25,864 bases of DNA. It comes from a virus. Made by a program: the position numbers and the translations under genes. The notes under the pieces are model-generated. The model saw only the letters and a list, made by a program, of their open reading frames with translations, was not told where the DNA came from and made no database searches. Of this stretch, positions 9,427 to 24,031 are shown piece by piece (positions within the stretch are counted from its first letter, which is position 1; every line of letters begins with the position of its first letter). Where the stretch lies: the IMG/VR virus record IMGVR_UViG_3300042870_001012, positions 1 to 25,864 of that record. One strand, written 5' to 3'.

Positions 9427-9882
9427 TTAGACAACGCCTTGAACAGCAAATGTGAGAGCAAACGTTGCTGGAGCACCAGATGATGAATCACCGTCTGGTT
9501 CAGTCATTCCAACGAGAAGGCAATTTGCATAGGTGCGGTCAAGACCTTGAACTTTGATGTCGCAGTCGTACGTTGTGACAGTTACGTCGTAGTACACGCG
9601 ACCAATAAGCGGTCTCAATGTCTTAATCTTGGCTGCGATACCGGTTTGGGTGTCTGATTCCACTCTGTCGTCATCGTAGTGAGCAGTAAGTGTAATGTCA
9701 CCAATCTCTGCTGGTGCACAAAGAACTTCCGGGAACTTTGCTCCACCTGGGTAGATTTTCTCAACGGATGCGGTGATTTCTCCACCTGAAACCTGGGCAA
9801 ATCTAAAACCTGTCCATTTTGGTGAATTAGCGCCAATTGGCGCAATTTCTGCGAGGATTTGCCTCTGTGATACTTTAGCCAT
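9427..9882 (-). CDS. Tail tube protein
   Basis: 151 residues starting at ATG 9882, with AGGAG six bases upstream. It is directly downstream of the sheath gene (13-base gap) and upstream of the chaperones, which is the fixed sheath-tube-chaperone order of contractile phages. The composition is that of a beta-barrel tube subunit: PKWTGFRFAQVSGGEITASVEK, then DITLTAHYDDDRVESDTQTGIAAKIKTL, then YYDVTVTTYDCDIKV and a C-terminal PATFALTFAVQGVV strand. Subunits stack as rings forming the inner tube through which DNA passes. Note the size: about 150 residues is normal for tube proteins. The assignment rests on context and strand pattern and is quite secure. Confidence 0.85.
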   Translation of the reverse strand: MAKVSQRQILAEIAPIGANSPKWTGFRFAQVSGGEITASVEKIYPGGAKFPEVLCAPAEIGDITLTAHYDDDRVESDTQTGIAAKIKTLRPLIGRVYYDVTVTTYDCDIKVQGLDRTYANCLLVGMTEPDGDSSSGAPATFALTFAVQGVV

Positions 9883-9895
9883 CGCTTACTCCTGA

Positions 9896-11371
9896 TTATA
9901 CTGTAACAGTTGCTGTTAGATTTGATTTGACAATTGTAACTTCAATCTTGTCACCGATTGGCGAAACTCGTACACCGAGTTGCGCTTTCACTGTTCCTCC
10001 TGCAAGTTGTGCAGTCGTATTGATTGAAGCGTCGCACTTGACCGAGTAACCAGGGTCAATAAGTTTTCCGTTGACATCAAGTGCTTCGTAAAGAGCACCG
10101 ATAGCCTTCATTCTTTCGCAGATTCCGGTCAGTCTTCCCTCAATTGAGGAGAACAAACCACCGCGACCATCAACAACGGCGAAGATTAGGTCTTCCATTG
10201 AAGCGTTAGCCTCAGCGACAACGCTGTTGACCGTATCTTGAGTCGTAATAAATCTGAAGTTTTCTGTGTCTAGTGAAAGAGAGCGCGCTCCGTAGATTCT
10301 TACCGTGTTGGCAATAATTCTGATTGCGTTTACGTAGTCTGTATCAAGCGAGTCTCCAAGAGTTCTATTGACATCAACTTCAACACCAGTAACAAAACGA
10401 GCAGCAGAGATGAGACCAGCATATGGCTGATGAGGGCCAGTCTGGTTGTGTGCAAGTGCACGCTTTCCAGCAGCGTAACCATCTGGTGGAATCAATCTTG
10501 TTACACCAGCAACGTCTGTTGGAACGTAAACCCAAGGATAGTAGAGGGCGGCATGCTCAGAACCCGTTTCAGCAGCAAGTGATGCTGCTGCTGCGGTAAT
10601 TCCCGTTGCTGCTTCTGCAAGGTGGCAGATTGCAATTCTGTTGTATGTGTTTGCGTGAGCAATTAGGTCTGCGTTGATTGCGTTTGTCTCTGGGCAAGAA
10701 ACTGCACCAGGTCCAAAAGAATCGTTGAACAAAGAAAGAGCAGTAGAAAATGCTGTGAATGTAGTATCAACCGTGTTTTCAGTTCTGTCGTCATCACCAT
10801 CAACAAAAGTTCCAGCACCAAACGCTGTTACTGCACTGACTTCTGGCATTCCGTCTGTCAACTTTACAGCCGTCATGTACTTTGAGGCAATGGCACTACT
10901 ATTAATTGCGGTAACTAGTTGCAACGTTGTTGACTTGAGTCCTGTTGCAAAAACAAGAACATCGTTGTAGTACAACTTAATATTTTTACTTGAGCCACTA
11001 GCAACAACTTCAATATCCATATCGTGTGCCCATGTACCAGGGCCATTTGCCGTAAGGCGAATACAGTTAGCACCACCTACACCACCTACGTTAAGAAGGA
11101 CTTGTGCCGAAGTTGCGCCAGGTCCTACGACTCTTGCGATGTAGCACTGTGTGCCACCTTCTTCAAAGAAGGTTTGAACGGTTGGGTGAAGGTATGCATA
11201 TGTTACATATCCACCGAATGTTTCTTCAAACTCTGCAAGGCTTGTTACGAGAACTGCCTCATCAGCAGGACCGCGCTCAGCGAGTCCAACGAAAAATGCC
11301 TGCGACGAAGCGCGCACTGTTGTGCTTGTAGGACCTGTTCTAACTGCTGTAGTAATTGTTACGCCTGGCAT
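9896..11371 (-). CDS. Tail sheath protein
   Basis: 491 residues. GGAGG lies four bases before ATG 11371, one of the strongest ribosome sites in the window and in keeping with a protein needed in many copies. The N-terminus MPGVTITTAVRTGPTSTT followed by AFFVGLAERGPADEAVLVTSLAEFEETFGG is the hallmark of contractile sheath proteins (PGV start, then the G-x-A-x-G-P segment and a 'F...FGG' motif). The C-terminal domain includes ARFVTGVEVDVNRTLGDSLDTDYVN, the region LIDPGYSVKCDASIN, and the final strand pair QLGVRVSPIGDKIEVTIV, the inter-subunit mesh of sheath proteins. It forms the contracting outer tail cylinder and proves the virus is myovirus-like. Its length is typical. Confidence 0.95.
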   Translation of the reverse strand: MPGVTITTAVRTGPTSTTVRASSQAFFVGLAERGPADEAVLVTSLAEFEETFGGYVTYAYLHPTVQTFFEEGGTQCYIARVVGPGATSAQVLLNVGGVGGANCIRLTANGPGTWAHDMDIEVVASGSSKNIKLYYNDVLVFATGLKSTTLQLVTAINSSAIASKYMTAVKLTDGMPEVSAVTAFGAGTFVDGDDDRTENTVDTTFTAFSTALSLFNDSFGPGAVSCPETNAINADLIAHANTYNRIAICHLAEAATGITAAAASLAAETGSEHAALYYPWVYVPTDVAGVTRLIPPDGYAAGKRALAHNQTGPHQPYAGLISAARFVTGVEVDVNRTLGDSLDTDYVNAIRIIANTVRIYGARSLSLDTENFRFITTQDTVNSVVAEANASMEDLIFAVVDGRGGLFSSIEGRLTGICERMKAIGALYEALDVNGKLIDPGYSVKCDASINTTAQLAGGTVKAQLGVRVSPIGDKIEVTIVKSNLTATVTV

Positions 11372-11385
11372 GTGACCTCCGTGTC

Positions 11386-11763
11386 TTAAAGTTCGTCGCT
11401 GTTAAGCGTCTTACTGTCGTCTGGCAAGTCTAATTGTACAGAAACTTGCTCGGTAGAATCTGCAACTGTTGTTAAAGTTTCTTCTTTTACTTTTTCAACT
11501 TTTGTTTCTTCAATTTTTGTTTTTTTGGACTTTTCTTTTGTTTCTTCTGTCTTGACAATTTCAAGTTTGTAAGACTTTACGGCAGAAAGGATTTCCGGGT
11601 TATCGTCGCAAGAAAATGCTTCATCCTCCGGGTATAGCAAAACAGGGGGCAAACCAATAGTTATATTTCTTCCGGAAATATTCTTGACAACAATATGTCC
11701 AGAGCCGTCATTTTCAAAGTCGGATTGGCCTTTGATTTTTTCAACTTTGTGTGAATGGGTCAT
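11386..11763 (-). CDS. Hypothetical protein between tail terminator and sheath
   Basis: 125 residues starting at ATG 11763, with AGGAG five bases upstream. Residues about 20-70 form a small beta-like domain (GSGHIVVKNISGRNITIGLPPVLLYPEDE) resembling short phage proteins that carry a 'KN-x-S-G-R-x-I' strand and a proline-rich turn. The rest, about 70-125, is a highly charged Lys/Glu run with many KxEE and EETK stretches and an acidic end, probably disordered or coiled. Small genes of this kind are often found between connector and sheath genes, and their role is mostly unknown. It could be a decoration or neck accessory protein. I do not assign a function. Confidence 0.75.
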   Translation of the reverse strand: MTHSHKVEKIKGQSDFENDGSGHIVVKNISGRNITIGLPPVLLYPEDEAFSCDDNPEILSAVKSYKLEIVKTEETKEKSKKTKIEETKVEKVKEETLTTVADSTEQVSVQLDLPDDSKTLNSDEL

Positions 11764-13735: not shown

Positions 13736-13933
13736 TTATCTTCCAGGACGACCACGACGGAAAAGGGCGTTAGCACCTTCTCTTACAATGTCTCTGGCTC
13801 GTTCGCCCTGAACTCCGCCTCTACCCAAGCGCCTGCGACCTGTCTGGAGAATGGAGCGAGCAGTACGGCGAACACGGCCGGCGCGTTCGGCTCCTAGAAC
13901 TCTTCTTAAAAAACCAGTTTTTGGTACGTCCAT
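13736..13933 (-). CDS. Small arginine-rich protein, function unknown
   Basis: 65 residues from ATG 13933, with AAGGAG seven bases upstream, so it is clearly translated. It has 18 arginines, many in pairs or triplets (LRRVLG, VRRTAR, TGRRRLG, FRRGRPGR), and almost no hydrophobic core. The codons are richer in G+C than the surrounding genes. Strong net positive charge suggests binding to DNA, RNA or an acidic protein partner. The position is between the second ParB-like gene and the connector gene. Possibilities are a DNA-condensing or virion-associated basic peptide, or a connector accessory. Nothing in the sequence separates these, and I do not recognise a family. Confidence 0.75.
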   Translation of the reverse strand: MDVPKTGFLRRVLGAERAGRVRRTARSILQTGRRRLGRGGVQGERARDIVREGANALFRRGRPGR

Positions 13934-13977: not shown

Positions 13978-14529
13978 TCACCTATCGGCATTTGGTGGAC
14001 GCTCAATAGCGACCTGTAATTCCGTTGCTTTCGCGTCTGCTTCAACTGGAACCCATGCACGAGAATAGTTGTGTTCTGAAATTTTACGATGTTTAAGCAG
14101 GGACCCATCAAGCATTAAGTGAAACTCGTCGTGATGCATCTGTAGGAGTTCTTGAAAATCTTCTTTACAGTATTTTTTTGAATTAATTAAATTCCTAACA
14201 ATGCTAGATACTGGCTTAGCAAGAAGATTTCCCCGAGAACGGTTAAGCCTAAGATGCATGAATTGAGCGTCAAGACTGTCGCATTCAACATAAATGACAG
14301 GACAATCATCCTTCATGAGGCTCTTTACGTGCTTGTTTTTGGTAGCAAGCATAAATCGCTCGTTTCCATCAATAATGATATTTGTGTCTTTTTGTACAAC
14401 TATTGGCAACATAAACCCAAAATCCATCAAAGACCTAGAAAGCGCAAGAAGGTCAGGTCGCAGCATGTACGTAGCCTTAAATGAGGCCACTTGTAACTCC
14501 GAGAATGGAACCATCTCAATATTGTTCAT
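13978..14529 (-). CDS. ParB-like (IbrB-type) protein
   Basis: 183 residues from ATG 14529, with an AGGAG site and overlapping the end of the PP-loop gene by 14 bases. Residues about 5-80 carry the ParB/sulfiredoxin-fold pattern: VPFSELQV, RPDLLALSRSLMDFGFMLPIVV, then IIIDGNERFMLATKN and a final strand DDCPVIYVE. DGNERFMLA stands in for the ParB 'GeRRlrA' box. The C-terminal half is helical (RLNRSRGNLLAKPVSSIVRNLI, EDFQELLQMH) and unfamiliar. In E. coli IbrB/YbdM is a ParB-like protein linked to the PAPS-reductase-like IbrA/YbdN. The same pairing here argues for joint action. The fold can act as nuclease, NTP-using enzyme or DNA binder, and which applies here is unknown. Confidence 0.7.
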   Translation of the reverse strand: MNNIEMVPFSELQVASFKATYMLRPDLLALSRSLMDFGFMLPIVVQKDTNIIIDGNERFMLATKNKHVKSLMKDDCPVIYVECDSLDAQFMHLRLNRSRGNLLAKPVSSIVRNLINSKKYCKEDFQELLQMHHDEFHLMLDGSLLKHRKISEHNYSRAWVPVEADAKATELQVAIERPPNADR

Positions 14530-15658
14530 TATTTAACTCCTGCTCGGCTGCTTTCGCCCTAAGTGTATGTGCTTTAGTTTTTGGCCCCACTGGTGCTGCT
14601 GCGGAAACTGTTATCTCATTAAGAATCAGGTTTCTAATAAGCCAGTTGATTGGGTATGAGTATGGGTCCTTGATGTGCTTTTTTCTAAAATCTGCCGTAT
14701 ACGCCCGAGCGCGTCGTTTGTCAATCTCGTCAAGCATGTTTTCGTTAATGCAGCGTTTAGCACCTTCAAAACCATCAATTGCATAACTTTCAATAAACTT
14801 CTCAATATTAAAATCCGGCCACCAGCGCCTCTGCGCGTCAATGTTGGGCCATATGTCGCAAAGGGTGTCATAGAAGCCTGGCTCTGTTGCAACTAGGTCA
14901 CCGATGCGCCTGATGGCCACTGCGTGCAATGGTACGCCAACTCGGGTATTGGAGCCGGTCATGGCGGCAAGGTCGTAGTACTCGCAGTACTCGGCATCGT
15001 GCTCTTCTGATATGAATTTAAGAACATCATCCATTTGCCAGTCGTAAATGACTTTAGCAAATTTAAGAGGTATTGACTTTTTCATTTTATAGGGAGAGAC
15101 GATGTAGTTTTCATGTATCTTCTGAACTAGCGACCTATACCGAACCATTGATTCGTTTGCCCTGACTCCAGTTATGAAAGCAATGCTTCCAGTCTTTCCC
15201 TGCATTGTGTAGTAGTCAATGCCTTCTGGCATCACTTCGTCACCAGGAAGACCGAAATGTCCAGCATGAATTGCCCATTCTGGCATTTCTCTGACTAGAC
15301 GACCTTCTCGTTTTCTAAAAGAATCCCATGAAAGGATATTTTCCCTAACACCAAGAACCCACACTTCTTGCGGATACGGAAGGCAGTACCACTCCATGTC
15401 AACCCAGTCGTACTGTCTGACCTTATTGACATAGTCATGAACGAGCGGACTGACCATTTCTTGGTCTCTGAAAATTACTTTTACAGGACCAAGACCACGC
15501 TCTTCGTGAATTTCTTTAGCAAGATACAAGACGGCAGTTGAGTCTTTTCCACCAGAAAACTGGACACATACAGTGTCAAAGTTGTCATAGACATGGCGAA
15601 TTCTCTGACGAGCAGCATCAACGCACGATATGTCCAAGAACATTCTCTGCTTAGTCAT
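14516..15658 (-). CDS. PP-loop ATPase, PAPS reductase / IbrA-like
   Basis: 380 residues. Its ATG overlaps the stop of the small coiled-coil gene (TAATG at 15660-15656), and no good ribosome site is seen, so translation is probably coupled. Residues 35-40 are SGGKDS, the PP-loop that binds ATP pyrophosphate in PAPS reductases, sulfurtransferases and tRNA thiolases. GVRANESMVRYRSLV (about 165-180) and the following SPYKM and VIYDWQMDDVLKFI segments match the PAPS reductase / DUF3440 (YbdN, IbrA) layout, including the 'W...DV..fI' element. The extra C-terminal ~120 residues are Arg- and Trp-rich (RRWWPDFNIEKFIESYAIDGFEGAKRC). Expected chemistry: adenylation of a substrate for sulfur transfer or reduction. 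The substrate is unknown. It sits between two ParB-like genes. Confidence 0.85.
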   Translation of the reverse strand: MTKQRMFLDISCVDAARQRIRHVYDNFDTVCVQFSGGKDSTAVLYLAKEIHEERGLGPVKVIFRDQEMVSPLVHDYVNKVRQYDWVDMEWYCLPYPQEVWVLGVRENILSWDSFRKREGRLVREMPEWAIHAGHFGLPGDEVMPEGIDYYTMQGKTGSIAFITGVRANESMVRYRSLVQKIHENYIVSPYKMKKSIPLKFAKVIYDWQMDDVLKFISEEHDAEYCEYYDLAAMTGSNTRVGVPLHAVAIRRIGDLVATEPGFYDTLCDIWPNIDAQRRWWPDFNIEKFIESYAIDGFEGAKRCINENMLDEIDKRRARAYTADFRKKHIKDPYSYPINWLIRNLILNEITVSAAAPVGPKTKAHTLRAKAAEQELNNEQY

Positions 15659-15828
15659 TAGTATTTTGCAATCTGCGATAGGCGAGAAACTTCTGCCTGA
15701 AGTTCGTCTACTTGACGAAGTAGAGAATCACGTTCTTCGGTCATCTTTTGAAGTTCTTCCCAATAAGAAGGAACACCAGTGACGGTATGGGCTCTATTGA
15801 TACGGTTTTTGTATTCGTCTATGTTCAT
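15658..15828 (-). CDS. Small coiled-coil protein
   Basis: 56 residues from ATG 15828, with GAGG six bases before it and one base after the ParB-like stop at 15830. A longer reading to 15861 would overlap that gene without a ribosome site, so the short form is preferred. Sequence: MNIDEYKNRINRAHTV, then a strongly heptad-like helix (EELQKMTEERDSLLRQVDEL, VSRLSQIA). It probably forms a dimeric coiled coil. No known family is recognised. Its location inside the ParB / PP-loop cluster, coupled at both ends, suggests it is a subunit or adaptor of that system, but this is context only. Confidence 0.7.
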   Translation of the reverse strand: MNIDEYKNRINRAHTVTGVPSYWEELQKMTEERDSLLRQVDELQAEVSRLSQIAKY

Positions 15829-15829
15829 C

Positions 15830-16621
15830 TCAAACCTCGGTATGCATGTCAATAAAGTCAATTAATTTTTCTGCTGTAGTAACTCCAGATATTCCTGGGT
15901 CATTTCGGAGATAGCGTACAAAGTCATACCATCTACGCTGCTGGTCTGGGTTGTCAAAAACTATTGTGTACTGAACCACTGCTTGCGGTGAAGAGCCAGG
16001 AGAAACAAGAGTGCTTCCGCTAACTGCCACTTGGTTGTGGTCAACGTTGTTGCCAGCAACAATTCGTCTAACACCATCTTCCGATTCTTCAATATTTATA
16101 TTGATTGGAGTACTGATAGGAATGTTTCCGTCTGGGTTCTGGATTGTTGGAGTGAAGTACGCATCTGCAATGGGGGAAATAATTTCTGATGAAATCTGAG
16201 TCTCCTCCATTGCTGCCACTTCAAACTCGTCCCATCCAAGACCCTCAAAGAGTTCGGGGTAGTCTTGATACAGGTCAATCACCATGTCGTTAAGCAGCGA
16301 CGGGTCAGTGTGTCCCAATTCCATCGTCCTGTTGTCGGCAAGTGCAAACGCAATCGCTTCGTCGTTATTGGCGTCCATTTTGACGACAGCAATCTTGCTC
16401 CACCCAAGACGCCTAGCAGCCTCCAGTTGGTGGTTTCCAGCAATGACTGTAAATGTTCCGTTGTCGTTAGGGCGAGCAACTATTGGCTTCATCTGCCCGA
16501 ACTCTTCGTAGGAAGCCATAATTGCTTCAATGTTTCCCTTGCGAGGATTTTTCTCTAAAGGGATAAGAGAATCCATCTCTACAGCAAGGGGTTTAAGGTC
16601 TTCCGAAATGTTATTTTTCAT
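15830..16621 (-). CDS. ParB N-domain protein
   Basis: 263 residues from ATG 16621, which overlaps the coiled-coil-like gene stop by four bases. Residues about 12-85 form a clear ParB-N domain: VEMDSLIPLEKNPRKGNIEAI, then SYEEFGQMKPIVARP, then TFTVIAGNHQLEAARRLGW and KIAVVKMD. The 'NPR' and 'G-x-H/R-x-x-x-A-A-R-R-L-G' boxes are the hallmark of ParB, Spo0J and phage ParB-like nucleases. Residues about 90-140 continue with NRTMELG and a helix (DPSLLNDMVIDLY). The C-terminal ~120 residues (VVQYTIVFDNPDQQRRWYDFVRYLR) resemble no family I know. There is no ParA partner, so plasmid partition is unlikely. It is best seen as the other ParB-fold partner of the adjacent PP-loop enzyme. Confidence 0.85.
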   Translation of the reverse strand: MKNNISEDLKPLAVEMDSLIPLEKNPRKGNIEAIMASYEEFGQMKPIVARPNDNGTFTVIAGNHQLEAARRLGWSKIAVVKMDANNDEAIAFALADNRTMELGHTDPSLLNDMVIDLYQDYPELFEGLGWDEFEVAAMEETQISSEIISPIADAYFTPTIQNPDGNIPISTPININIEESEDGVRRIVAGNNVDHNQVAVSGSTLVSPGSSPQAVVQYTIVFDNPDQQRRWYDFVRYLRNDPGISGVTTAEKLIDFIDMHTEV

Positions 16622-20342: not shown

Positions 20343-20386
20343 CGTCTAGTAGTAGGTACCTATGGTTAGTAGTGGGTACCTAGACG
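20343..20386 (-). promoter_or_regulatory. Direct-repeat and hairpin element between terminase and recombination genes
   Basis: Two direct copies of TAGTAGTRGGTACCTA (20347-20362 and 20367-20382) match at 15 of 16 bases with a 20-bp spacing. Each contains the palindrome GGTACC, and the first is part of the perfect 10-bp palindrome TAGGTACCTA. CGTCTA (20343-20348) and TAGACG (20381-20386) pair outside, giving a 12-bp imperfect stem with a 6-base bulge and a 14-base loop. It overlaps the terminase stop and ends nine bases before the next start. It may be a repressor operator pair or an RNA processing or termination signal. No clear T run follows. Confidence 0.5.
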
Positions 20387-21687
20387 ATGATACTGACGAT
20401 TTTCCTCTGTGGCAACCCCAGGCCAGTCAAATGTGTAAATGCCCCAACAACCGAGTCAACCTGGTCGTCGTGGTCGCAAGCCTCTGGAAACGACGACATT
20501 TCGTCCAACCAGTCGCTCAACCACGTACCCCTTACAACTCTTACGTTTCCATTGGCTACAGCAGCCGCAAAGGGTCTAGCACGAGTCAATTTATCGCCAG
20601 TTGCCCGTATTCCTGAAAAATCAAACCCTGGAACAACGTATCTGGCGTATTGGTCCACGAGGGCTTTTCCTGACGAACCAGGCTCTTGCTCCATCCTAAT
20701 GGCAACTCCTCTTCCGTCCTCGTAGGCAGTCTGGGCAACTAGTTGCTCCACCTTCTCTCCCTTCACACGAGCCCTCTTAACGTCCAAGACGTAAGCAACC
20801 CCACCGTCAAAAAGGACCAAAGTTCCAACTGTCCAGTCGGGGTTGGGTGTCTGTGGGGAAGGTTCGGTGGCTGCAAGGTCCCAGAAACGCACAGCCCTGG
20901 CCGCTGACGTGACGGTTGGCACCTCAATACTGTCAATTATTACGATGTTTTCTCTCTCAAATAGAGTTCCCAAGGTGGTGCTCCACCAGTCTCCCTCTTC
21001 AAGCCTGCGCCGTTCAATTGGGTCAAGAGCCTGCAGGGCTTGGCGATAGGAGTCAGCGTCAATTCCAGGGTTGTCCGTCAGTTTACTGGGAACGAAAATT
21101 CTTCCTTTTTCGGTTCCCTCAACGATAAATCTCTGCCTAACCCAGTTTGGAGCAGGGTTTGAGGCACACCGCATTCTCAATGGAACCTGAGATAACGGTC
21201 CTGAGTTGGGGCGGCGCAAACGGGAGAACATGTACCGATAGTCCGATTCACGGATTTCGGTGACCTCATCCATTCCAATAAACTGAAATTCTGACCCTTT
21301 ATAACGAAGGTAGTCGTTTGTGTTGTTTAGGTACCCAAAAGATATTCTTGCTCCAGAAGGAAATGTCGCTACGTAACTGTTTGCGTTCCAGTGAATATCG
21401 TCATGACCGTCTATCCATGTCTTGAATCTATCCATGAGGGCACCAGGGAGCGCCAAGTCAGCATATGTACGACGAAACAAAATGGCTGAATATCCAGGAA
21501 CATCAACATATTGCAGGGCTGACATTAAAAGTGCTGAACTTTTTCCACCGCCTGCGGCACCACCGAATAATGCTTCAATACCATTCGTTCTCAAAAAAAC
21601 TCTTTGAGTGATAGATGCCTCTTCTGGACAGAATTCAGGTTTCTTTGGTTCTAAGTATTCAAGAACTTTTATCCAGTCAGTAGTCAT
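20380..21687 (-). CDS. Terminase large subunit
   Basis: 435 residues from ATG 21687, chosen over an upstream ATG at 21723 because a purine-rich AGAAAGAA site precedes it and the longer form lacks one. The N-terminal packaging ATPase has Walker A GGAAGGGKSSALL (about 43-55), RRTYADLALPG, and Walker B FQFIGMDEVTE. The C-terminal RNase H-like nuclease has RFWDLAATEP (Asp), RMEQEPGSSGK (Glu) and HDDQVDSVVGAF (Asp), the three expected metal ligands. It cleaves concatemers and drives DNA into the prohead through the portal. No small subunit is seen in the window. It is the first gene of the leftward unit and is divergent from the portal gene, which is unusual. Length is normal for the family. Confidence 0.95.
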   Translation of the reverse strand: MTTDWIKVLEYLEPKKPEFCPEEASITQRVFLRTNGIEALFGGAAGGGKSSALLMSALQYVDVPGYSAILFRRTYADLALPGALMDRFKTWIDGHDDIHWNANSYVATFPSGARISFGYLNNTNDYLRYKGSEFQFIGMDEVTEIRESDYRYMFSRLRRPNSGPLSQVPLRMRCASNPAPNWVRQRFIVEGTEKGRIFVPSKLTDNPGIDADSYRQALQALDPIERRRLEEGDWWSTTLGTLFERENIVIIDSIEVPTVTSAARAVRFWDLAATEPSPQTPNPDWTVGTLVLFDGGVAYVLDVKRARVKGEKVEQLVAQTAYEDGRGVAIRMEQEPGSSGKALVDQYARYVVPGFDFSGIRATGDKLTRARPFAAAVANGNVRVVRGTWLSDWLDEMSSFPEACDHDDQVDSVVGAFTHLTGLGLPQRKIVSIIV

Positions 21688-21708
21688 GGTTTTCTTTCTA
21701 TAAGGCAA

Positions 21709-21740
21709 TTGCACACTAGGCATGTTTTATGCGCTACGGT
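21709..21740 (+). promoter_or_regulatory. Candidate rightward promoter in divergent gap
   Basis: TTGCAC (21709-21714) and TACGGT (21735-21740) are 20 bases apart. TACGGT is a TAnnnT-type -10 ending eight bases before the ATG at 21749, so a leaderless or very short leader is possible. The gap between the two start codons is only 61 bp and must hold promoters for both directions. No clear leftward promoter was found. The arrangement TTGCNC, 19-20 bases, TAnnnT resembles that at 9369-9399. Motif reading only. Confidence 0.3.
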
Positions 21741-21976: not shown

Positions 21977-24031
21977 ATGGCTTGGAATAACTTTAATAAT
22001 AAATCACTGAACAATCAGTCCACAAAGAGCGTCGGTCCTGGCGCTCCAATTGCGCACAACCCTGGCTATGCCGGAAAAGCGTATTCTGACTCGTGGGATA
22101 TTGAGCGTGTTTATAAAGAAGGAATGCAGAAGGTAACTTGGGTTGCTCGTTGTATTGACGCAATTGCTGGAAACCAAGCAAGACTCCCAGTGATTCTTAG
22201 GAAAGACAACTCTCCGCAGGGTGAGATTATTGTAGGTTCAAAAGCAAAAAATTCAGAGATATTAAAAATTCTGAACACAAAATCCAATATAGGTGAAAAT
22301 TCATTTATATTTAGATACAGGCTTTCTTCTCAACTCTTAATGAGCACACGAGGGGTGTTTATTGAAAAAATTTATGGCAGGGACGGCGGAGTAATTGCTC
22401 TCAACCTTCTACCCCCACAAAGCACTTCACCAATTCCTGACCCAAGAAATTTTGTTGCTGGTTACGAAGTGAAGATGCCAAACGGCGGCACCATAATCAT
22501 GAAACCAAAAGATGTTATTTGGATTCGCAAACCACATCCATTAGACCCATACCTATCAATGACCCCATTAGAGGCTGCTGGTATTGCTGTTGAGATTGAA
22601 AACTTGGCAAAGGTTTACAATAGAAACTACCTTCTAAACGATGGTCGTCCAGGAGGTCTTCTTGTTCTTCGTGGAGAAATTGACGATGATGACAAAGAAG
22701 AACTAAAGAGCAGATTCAGGGGAAACATTGCTCGTGCTGGAGCAACGACCGTTATCTCTTCTGACGATGGTGCTGACTTTGTTGATACATCCGCCAGTCC
22801 TCGTGACGCTGCATATATTCAAATGCGTCAAATTACTAAGGAAGAAATTCTTGCATCTTTTGGTGTTCCGGAATCAGTTATCGGAAACGCTGCTGGCAGA
22901 ACATTCTCTAACGCTGGTGAAGAAATCCGAGTCTTTTGGAACGAAACAATGCTTCCGCATTTAGAGCCAATTGCTCGTGCCTTAGATGAACTTGACGACC
23001 AGCATTACATTGACTTTGACGTCAGGAATGTTCCTGTTCTTATTCTTTACGAACAGGAAAGAAACAGATACCTCAAGGATGAACTTGGTCAAGGTCTAAT
23101 CAGCACAAACGAATACAGAACTGGAACTGGCAGAAAAGAAGTTGAGAGCGACCTTGCCGATTCTCTTTTATGGAACCCAAACCTCACTCCGATTGCAAAC
23201 ACGAAGAAGAAGATGGAAGAGCCTGCTCAGGCCGGTGTAATGGGGGCTCCAGGAGTCCCTGGGGCACCAGGAATGCCCGGAATGCCAGGAATGCCAGGAA
23301 TGCCTCCAGGTGCAGAGGGAATGCCTCCAGACCCAACAACCATGCAGGGTGCTATGGAACTCGCAACACAGGGTGAACAGATGGCTCAAAACGCAGGAAT
23401 GCCACCAGTTGACGGTGTCATGTCTCCAGAGCAGGGAGCCATGCCAACCGCGCCAGCGCAAGCATCCGCAAACTACTCGGCGCTTCAAAGCAAGAGCGAA
23501 CAAGAGTGGCAAACAAAAGTTGACACAACATTTAACCGATGGACAGAGATTCTTGATAGAAGCCTGGAAAGAGTATTTGAGAGACAACAGAGAGTTGTTC
23601 TTGAGAAAGCCTCTGGTATTAAATCTAGAAAACTATTGGCAACAGGAGCGCTTGATGTGGAAAGCATTTTCAGCGCAGATGTATGGGCTAAACAGATGGA
23701 CGAAGACATTAGGCCTGTTCTTAACGCAATTATCAATGATGCACAAACAACATATTCCGAAAAAAATCTTGTCAAGATGCCGTTAAAAAAAGAAGATATC
23801 GTCGCTCATGTCAACTCGCAAATAACCAGAATCAAGTCAGTCAACGATGAAACTGCACAGGAAATCAACAATGCCGTGTTTGCAACACTTGGCGTACATG
23901 GCGAAGAAGACAAGGTAACTACTTTGCGCACTGCTCTTGTTGGAACATTTACCAATCTCCTAGCAAAAAAGAAATCGCAAATTGCTGAAGACGAAACGCG
24001 TCGGGCGTGGTCAATGGGTTCAAACATCTAA
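21977..24031 (+). CDS. Portal protein with MuF-like C-terminal region
   Basis: 684 residues from ATG 21977. The N-terminal ~400 residues are an HK97-type portal: VTWVARCIDAIAGNQARLPVI, FRYRLSSQLLMSTRGVFIEK, PLEAAGIAVEIENLAKVYNRN, and EEILASFGVPESVIGNAAGRT with FSNAGEEIRVFWNETMLPHL. The portal ring is the DNA entry channel at one head vertex. Residues 423-443 are seven Gly-x-Pro triplets (collagen-like), inside a long Met/Pro/Gln/Ala linker. The last ~190 residues are helical and end TNLLAKKKSQIAEDETRRAWSMGSN, resembling the 'IA..ET..A...G' end of MuF/SPP1-gp7 minor head proteins, so portal and minor head functions seem fused. Much longer than ordinary portals (400-550). The ribosome site is weak. 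Confidence 0.93.
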   Translation: MAWNNFNNKSLNNQSTKSVGPGAPIAHNPGYAGKAYSDSWDIERVYKEGMQKVTWVARCIDAIAGNQARLPVILRKDNSPQGEIIVGSKAKNSEILKILNTKSNIGENSFIFRYRLSSQLLMSTRGVFIEKIYGRDGGVIALNLLPPQSTSPIPDPRNFVAGYEVKMPNGGTIIMKPKDVIWIRKPHPLDPYLSMTPLEAAGIAVEIENLAKVYNRNYLLNDGRPGGLLVLRGEIDDDDKEELKSRFRGNIARAGATTVISSDDGADFVDTSASPRDAAYIQMRQITKEEILASFGVPESVIGNAAGRTFSNAGEEIRVFWNETMLPHLEPIARALDELDDQHYIDFDVRNVPVLILYEQERNRYLKDELGQGLISTNEYRTGTGRKEVESDLADSLLWNPNLTPIANTKKKMEEPAQAGVMGAPGVPGAPGMPGMPGMPGMPPGAEGMPPDPTTMQGAMELATQGEQMAQNAGMPPVDGVMSPEQGAMPTAPAQASANYSALQSKSEQEWQTKVDTTFNRWTEILDRSLERVFERQQRVVLEKASGIKSRKLLATGALDVESIFSADVWAKQMDEDIRPVLNAIINDAQTTYSEKNLVKMPLKKEDIVAHVNSQITRIKSVNDETAQEINNAVFATLGVHGEEDKVTTLRTALVGTFTNLLAKKKSQIAEDETRRAWSMGSNI
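23270..23305 (+). repeat. 9-bp tandem repeat in collagen-like portal linker
   Basis: Four consecutive GGAATGCCN units encode Gly-Met-Pro four times, the tail of seven Gly-x-Pro triplets at portal residues 423-443. Nearly identical units indicate slippage-type expansion. The triplets join the portal core to its MuF-like C-terminal part. Copy number may vary between related phages. Confidence 0.9.

Follow-up and report, generated by a model that had tools for sequence, protein, structure and literature searches.

A conserved PP-loop/ParB module of the IbrA-IbrB type with a second ParB-fold protein in a phage genome, and its possible role in DNA modification

The virus record IMGVR_UViG_3300042870_001012 of IMG/VR, which was analysed over its whole length of 25,864 bases and is called the window below, carries on its minus strand a cluster of genes for a PP-loop enzyme and two proteins related to ParB. 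Our data show that this cluster is genuine and conserved and belongs to a known type of module, i.e. a PP-loop enzyme with a ParB-like partner as in IbrA-IbrB, of which it is a recurring variant with a second ParB-type protein. Read along the minus strand, the cluster consists of ParB1 (15830-16621; 263 amino acids (aa), with a ParB_N domain, of the phrog_723 type), a small coiled-coil-like protein of 56 aa (15658-15828, with its ATG at 15828), a PP-loop ATP-pyrophosphatase-type enzyme of 380 aa (14516-15658; phrog_2302) and ParB2, an IbrB-like ParB-fold protein of 183 aa (13978-14529; phrog_2159). A check of open reading frames (ORFs) found all four at these positions, and the tight coupling noticed in the original prediction is real: g115 and ParB1 overlap by ATGA, a single base separates ParB1 from the small gene, the small gene and the PP-loop gene overlap by TAATG, and the PP-loop gene and the ParB2 gene by 14 bases.

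The co-occurrence of these genes in related genomes that such a module implies was borne out and exceeds chance by neighbourhood counts. Loci were collected with several seeds, and families were recognized with profiles built in this analysis; the strict counts given here take in only loci with enough DNA, whereas looser counts, which also accept short loci if the partner is found, lean upward with a similar outcome. Around the window enzyme (best 80 of at least 599 matching viral stretches), ParB1 lies upstream in 44/48 loci, ParB2 downstream in 69/75 and both in 43/46. With the enzyme of phage Phlyer as seed (30 loci) the corresponding counts are 19/19 for ParB1 and 25/25 for ParB2, and the PP-loop gene is present in 23/23 loci seeded with ParB1 (36 loci collected) and in all 25 with room that were seeded with ParB2 (33 collected). 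As a seed that makes no assumption about the cluster, the terminase (best 80 of 596) gave PP-loop enzyme and ParB2 in 29/29 loci with room and ParB1 in 26/29, with 51 loci too short. Some contigs were reached from more than one seed, and many loci are almost identical to one another. The 88 loci with all three genes are reduced to 56 by dereplication at 95% PP-loop identity, and over these the family distances correlate (PP-loop with ParB1, r 0.93; PP-loop with ParB2, r 0.81), which also reflects shared phage descent.

In bacterial loci (80 kept of 127 confirmed), ParB2 follows the enzyme in 70/72 cases, and a ParB1-type gene is found upstream in only 3/64. Because ParB2 is near-constant in bacteria as well and ParB1 is rare there, the PP-loop enzyme and ParB2 form the core of the module and ParB1 is mostly a phage addition. 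In the two bacterial exceptions ParB2 precedes the enzyme (L264) or has a match far off in the genome (L191); the record of locus L187 has ParB1 some 7 kb upstream. Three profiles revealed no fusion of PP-loop and ParB genes among loci L002-L189, the sole long PP-loop frame (L187-L189) being due to an intein. This intein (L187:3759-5861; also in L188 and L189) is inserted immediately ahead of the residue that corresponds to C92 of the window enzyme, and in L187, the one examined, it has a LAGLIDADG domain (34.2 bits) and a splicing domain scoring below cut-off (28.9 bits). Inteins tend to settle in important, conserved proteins, and the presence of this one agrees with, while not proving, an important role of the PP-loop enzyme.

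The original prediction had regarded the arrangement as non-standard, a view that was not supported, as the trio recurs in isolated phages and is already visible in public annotation. At E 1e-5 the enzyme matches 212 phage records, and in 74 of these the match spans 80% or more of the enzyme; PP-loop enzymes of this kind are found in 563 plasmid records (both sets include many near copies). A ParB-type gene, the PP-loop gene and a ParB2-type gene occur together in Phlyer (Mycobacterium), prophi79-1 (a prophage of M. abscessus), Shrooms (Arthrobacter), 031MP003 (Bacillus) and P11VFA (Rhizobium), as well as on an Amycolatopsis plasmid that also has phage terminase and portal genes. In Phlyer, prophi79-1, Shrooms and the Amycolatopsis plasmid, the annotation places a terminase no more than about 2 kb from the trio. 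Phages of Streptococcus, Flavobacterium, Faecalibacterium, Microcystis and Pseudomonas have an IbrA-like enzyme with a ParB2-type gene on one side or the other; a Microbacterium phage has the enzyme with no ParB neighbour in the 5.2-kb stretch examined. IbrAB-like pairs also occur on plasmids and bacterial genome contigs. The pairing of PP-loop enzyme and ParB2 is near-obligate, and in several lineages the trio is again found close to terminase or recombination genes.

The active site of the PP-loop enzyme is intact. The protein matches Pfam PAPS_reduct with 35.3 bits (cut-off 22.5) and phrog_2302 with an E of 8.6e-74. In a set of 93 distinct PP-loop proteins, comprising the window, viral relatives and phage and plasmid representatives, its SGGKDS motif (residues 35-40; 15539-15556) has S35, G37, K38, D39 and S40 in 93/93 and G36 in 91/93, and D65, E67, W111, R123, G164, R166, E169, R173, D206, W207, D211, Y228 and R239 are kept throughout (93/93). 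The best kept cysteine is C225 (84/93), followed by C92 (76/93); seven of the nine sequences deviating at C225 are IbrA-like or Microbacterium sequences of named records, which have Asn or Pro there. The catalytic cysteine motif of PAPS reductase (CysH), ECG.H (or ECGxH), is present in 0/93, on which ground a PAPS reductase serving as a sulfur-metabolism gene was rejected, and CxxC is likewise present in 0/93. An AlphaFold model (mean pLDDT 85.7; low at residues 1-6 and 171-182, and 60-66 across the last 30 residues) is closest to the PAPS domain of FAD synthase (Z 16.9 over 173 residues, 2.9 A). FAD synthase, PAPS reductase and CysD folds match at Z 14-17 and TilS, GMP synthetase, LarE and TtuA at Z 10.8-12.6; it is residues 1-260 that match FAD synthase and the APS/PAPS reductases, and the C-terminal helical part (about 260-380) is scarcely covered by structure matches. 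Because PP-loop enzymes with and without sulfur chemistry both match, the fold does not decide the chemistry.

Both flanking proteins are ParB-related, as the original prediction had supposed, with a distant mutual relation (hhalign probability 65, E 6e-5). ParB1 matches Pfam ParB_N with 35.1 bits (cut-off 26.3) and phrog_723 with an E of 4.6e-37. Alignment with the Mycobacterium, Arthrobacter and Amycolatopsis versions delimits a conserved C-terminal block (about residues 215-258; 15848-15979), in which Y218, F222, Q227, L238 and T248 are kept in 73-76 of 76 sequences. ParB2 stays below the ParB_N cut-off (13.5 vs 26.3 bits); it matches phrog_2159 with an E of 3.3e-24, and a search of the PDB with a ParB2 profile finds ParB/Noc chains at 4e-8. 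The AlphaFold model of ParB2 has a mean pLDDT of 82.1, with low values starting at about residue 141; it matches KorB best by Z (12.6; 146 residues, 3.6 A, covering ParB2 residues 2-157) and ParB-CDP with Z 11.0 (94 residues, 2.1 A), with Noc also among the structural matches; DndB or DpdB structures are not among the matches listed, which excludes neither. As a separate observation, the gene 2 product of Arthrobacter phage Shrooms (L082:226-1422), encoded upstream of the triad, apparently contains two ParB-type stretches in one protein (alignment, by eye).

Box II of the ParB proteins reads G-N-H-Q in ParB1 (residues 62-65; 16427-16438) and D-G-N-E-R in ParB2 (residues 54-58; 14356-14370). 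The column following its Gly, which was placed by PDB entry 7o0n (E93A) and equals Glu93 of Myxococcus ParB, contains the catalytic Glu in 0/87 ParB2 and 0/76 ParB1 sequences, and is instead occupied by F, N, S, H, T, Y or A in ParB2 and by N or H in ParB1. Sulfiredoxin has a Cys in its motif G-C-H-R; at this position neither ParB1 nor ParB2 has one. Since these active-site residues differ, none of the three names, PAPS reductase, CTPase partition protein or sulfiredoxin, is apt, and the usual record names, PAPS reductase and ParB partition protein, are contradicted here.

Kinship of the core with IbrA-IbrB, which had been suspected from the start, stood up in profile comparisons with the E. 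coli plasmid pair: the PP-loop enzyme aligns with the IbrA/YbdN-kind protein with hhalign probability 99.8 (E 2.7e-30, 295 columns) and ParB2 with the IbrB-like protein with probability 99.6 (E 2.4e-24). Judged by these profiles, PP-loop enzyme and ParB2 are a sister of IbrA-IbrB.

As to the function of the module, we tentatively consider it most likely that the trio makes a covalent change on phage DNA, with the PP-loop enzyme adenylating a group on the DNA and the ParB-fold proteins holding or guiding it. The core would then be a two-protein machine of IbrA-like PP-loop enzyme and IbrB-like ParB2, to which phages add ParB1. The enzyme would spend ATP to adenylate its target, with AMP and pyrophosphate chemistry, ParB2 would bind DNA and place the enzyme there, and ParB1 may supply targeting or tuning, so that phage DNA might be modified before or during packaging. 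In favour of this reading we count the intact PP-loop site, the structural closeness of the enzyme to FAD synthase and APS/PAPS reductases, the pairing counts, the correlated family distances and the position near the terminase in different phages. ParB-fold proteins beside DNA-modifying enzymes have precedents in DpdB, DndB and the ParBc proteins next to CmoX. Shrooms, prophi79-1 and 031MP003 also have an annotated methyltransferase close to the trio, but a Pfam match at E 0.001 was obtained in 0/3. We infer DNA as the substrate and modification as the reaction, and likewise the timing, the chemistry and the part played by each ParB protein. The missing cysteine pair argues, without proving it, for a transfer that does not involve sulfur, as TilS and FAD synthase perform. 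A more far-reaching version, in which a lysidine- or FAD-synthase-like adenylating PP-loop enzyme is carried to phage DNA by ParB-fold clamps without the hydrolytic Glu and makes a widespread, so far undescribed modification free of sulfur, with a second ParB guide added in several phage lineages, is doubtful.

A number of observations weigh against DNA modification by such a trio. The closest structural match of ParB2 by Z, KorB, is a transcription repressor, and passages of PMC7649339, citing Sandt 2002, report that the presence of IbrB raises Eib expression. Among the ParB-superfamily proteins that are known from DNA-modification systems, DndB has been proposed to be a negative regulator and DpdB to be dispensable in some clusters (passages of PMC12839542 and PMC10853773), neither of which amounts to guiding. 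ParB1 is rare in bacteria, as shown above, and the records of three terminase-seeded loci (L311, L312 and L332) have no match to it. Seven loci (L051, L054, L056-058, L069 and L071) have the enzyme without adjacent ParB2 or ParB1 and no good ParB2 match anywhere in their records (7/7), with a ParB1-type gene elsewhere on the opposite strand in two, but all seven are fragments. The enzymes of these seven are about 70% identical, and in six of the loci the neighbouring genes are not co-directional (by eye). In the window the large terminase gene (TerL) lies 3.8 kb from the trio, and no terminase is annotated near it in the examined stretches of 031MP003 and P11VFA. Companion enzymes were sought in 10 long related contigs (67-156 kb, possibly incomplete), with controls on 14 genomes. 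An N6/N4 methyltransferase was found in 0/10 (control 11/14, nine over cut-off), and no plain base-modification gene appeared in 20 of 100 ORFs (110-1500 aa; four longer ORFs excluded) of a 132-kb relative.

Some of the same observations speak for transcription control, in which PP-loop and ParB-fold proteins would co-activate or repress phage genes, in the way that eib genes are activated by IbrA-IbrB; the target of adenylation may then be a regulator, or the enzyme may produce a small signal. Beside the KorB match and the effect of IbrB on Eib, this is consistent with public records that label some of these genes co-activators of prophage gene expression. A plain regulator, however, needs no kept catalytic site, the trio sits among packaging-side genes in several phages, and the IbrAB case, going by the title of Sandt 2002, is one of a host island acting on prophage genes. 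Transcription control is the main rival of DNA modification, if on balance somewhat unlikely.

Alternatively, the substrate might be RNA or nucleotides, with an enzyme of the TilS or FAD synthase kind working on tRNA or the nucleotide pool and the ParB proteins as its nucleotide-binding partners. The best fold matches speak for this, since they include FAD synthase (which transfers AMP to FMN), APS/PAPS reductase and CysD, and at a lower level TilS. Moreover, genes of nucleotide metabolism adjoin the cluster in some relatives, i.e. dCMP deaminase-type genes next to ParB1 in L048 and L063 (by Pfam) and in L052 and L055 (by eye), and ThyX in L034. Against an RNA or nucleotide substrate, ParB2 resembles the DNA-binding proteins ParB, Noc and KorB over both the N-domain and the helical part. 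A DNA theme is also suggested by a related upstream gene that recurs in 17/78 bacterial loci and whose single checked member is SNF2-like, but SNF2 domains occur in only 2/10 long contigs of the window's kin. We regard this alternative as decidedly unlikely.

The sulfur transfer considered in the original prediction is weakly supported. It would take the form of DNA phosphorothioation, as with DndC, or of transfer from a single sacrificial cysteine as in LarE, and it draws on weak DndC matches (27.5 bits in the PP-loop region; PADLOC DndC, E 3.7e-8), on a LarE match of 18.6 bits, on LarE structures at Z 11.4, alongside TtuA and TilS, on the well-kept C225 and on passages of PMC8092301 that liken PAPS reductase-like genes of M. 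abscessus prophages to DndC. These scores are far under the curated cut-offs, however (290.4 for DndC, 150 for LarE), neither cysteine motif occurs in any of the 93 proteins, and the seven IbrA-like or Microbacterium sequences replace C225 itself by Asn or Pro. A cysteine desulfurase (PF00266) was found in 0/10 of the possibly incomplete long contigs (control 14/14) and DndD also in 0/10 (control only below cut-off, in 9/14 genomes), but a host desulfurase could serve. Two-cysteine sulfur chemistry is therefore disfavoured, and phosphorothioation was rejected, as no cysteine motif, DndD or desulfurase was found, whereas a LarE-like route through C225 alone is conceivable, since LarE works with a single cysteine and its fold match is no worse than that of TilS. 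Altogether, sulfur transfer appears improbable.

A role in packaging or partition, in which ParB-type proteins would mark or clamp the packaging site near the terminase, agrees with the trio being near TerL in several different phages, but is highly improbable given IbrAB-like pairs on plasmids and bacterial contigs, box II without the catalytic Glu in both ParB families, and a ParA-type ATPase (PF13614) in 0/10 of the long, possibly incomplete contigs (control 14/14), the absence on which plasmid partition as such was rejected.

Returning to the cluster itself, the small coiled-coil gene, which the original prediction had counted as a partner, is not a steady component. All Pfam matches of the 56-aa protein are below cut-off, mostly to coiled-coil types. 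Over 91 loci, ParB1 and the PP-loop gene are at most 40 bases apart or overlap in 28, are 100-300 bases apart in 27, more than 300 bases in 30 and in between in six, and a small gene with the IAKY ending is present at 8/98 distinct starts (a near variant in L020 was left uncounted). Both findings led us to reject it as a fixed fourth part.

Nor does the cluster lie quite inside a structural operon, as had been claimed: the coupling of the genes is real, but they are situated at a border between TerL and recombination genes on one side and connector, sheath and tube genes on the other. The minus-strand row runs from TerL (20380-21723) through genes for a Rad52-type annealing protein, a PD-(D/E)XK exonuclease, HNH and RuvC to the four-gene cluster, and from there to the neck (connector) protein, tail sheath, tail tube and tail chaperone. 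The portal gene (21977-24031, plus strand) is divergent from TerL and the remaining row, likewise in the related loci that reach the portal. After ParB2 comes a gene for an arginine-rich protein of 65 aa with no PHROG match (13736-13933, minus strand), and several relatives have other small arginine-rich frames at the same position (by eye). In the 132-kb relative (L363), the scanned ORFs include a 2OG-Fe(II) oxygenase and a glycosyltransferase, to which no role was assigned; the oxygenase gene (9483-10064) adjoins a tryptophan-halogenase-type gene (10045-11562; 346 bits).

In the open-access literature searched, mostly by listing, no publication was found that treats the triad as one unit. 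Passages of PMC4541368 and PMC4490671 mention IbrA/IbrB in phages, PMC11437467 considers phage PAPS reductase homologues worth studying, and the parts of PMC10434257, PMC5874904 and PMC10695390 that concern these genes are annotations only. As the triad is present in cultured mycobacteriophages, the question of an IbrA-IbrB-like function is directly testable in a laboratory host. Should DNA modification prove true, it would represent new chemistry, perhaps a counter to host restriction.

Among known systems, FAD synthase, PAPS reductase and CysD have the common PP-loop domain fold, from which the window enzyme departs by the missing reductase cysteine motif and the extra C-terminal helical part. 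Canonical CTPase ParB proteins, in contrast to ParB1 and ParB2, have the catalytic Glu in box II. DndB/DndC phosphorothioation also combines a PP-loop enzyme with a ParB-superfamily protein (in passages of PMC10853773; PMC11662687 treats the DUF262/ParB-like superfamily and the cluster cysteine of DndC), whereas the trio enzyme lacks the cysteine motif for cluster or sulfur transfer, and neither DndD nor a desulfurase was found in the 10 related, possibly incomplete contigs. A ParB-fold protein likewise adjoins a DNA-base-modifying enzyme in the case of DpdB in 7-deazaguanine DNA systems and of the ParBc proteins beside the phage cytosine carboxymethyltransferase CmoX, which are also fused to methyltransferases and whose function there is described as unknown (passages of PMC12839542 for DpdB and of PMC12783734 for ParBc); the enzymes concerned, however, are a TGT homologue and a cytosine carboxymethyltransferase, respectively, rather than PP-loop proteins. 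Similar in layout are Phlyer genes 1-5 and Shrooms genes 5-7, in which ParB1, in Phlyer small genes, the PP-loop gene and ParB2 follow one another with the terminase just after or near, although these belong to different phage lineages, their PP-loop enzymes are about 33-35% identical to that of the window and the order relative to the terminase differs. Finally, IbrA-IbrB of E. coli and YbdN-YbdM of K-12 (ybdNM being repressed by CitR in the account of PMC9068703) share with the window a PP-loop gene followed by a ParB-like gene, both homologous by profile comparison with the E. coli plasmid pair of this kind. Relative to IbrA-IbrB, the window enzyme gives no match to DUF3440, even at E 1, whereas the IbrA-like protein of the E. 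coli plasmid scores 116 bits. It also retains C225, a position that is Asn or Pro in IbrA-like proteins, and the phage module has ParB1 in addition.

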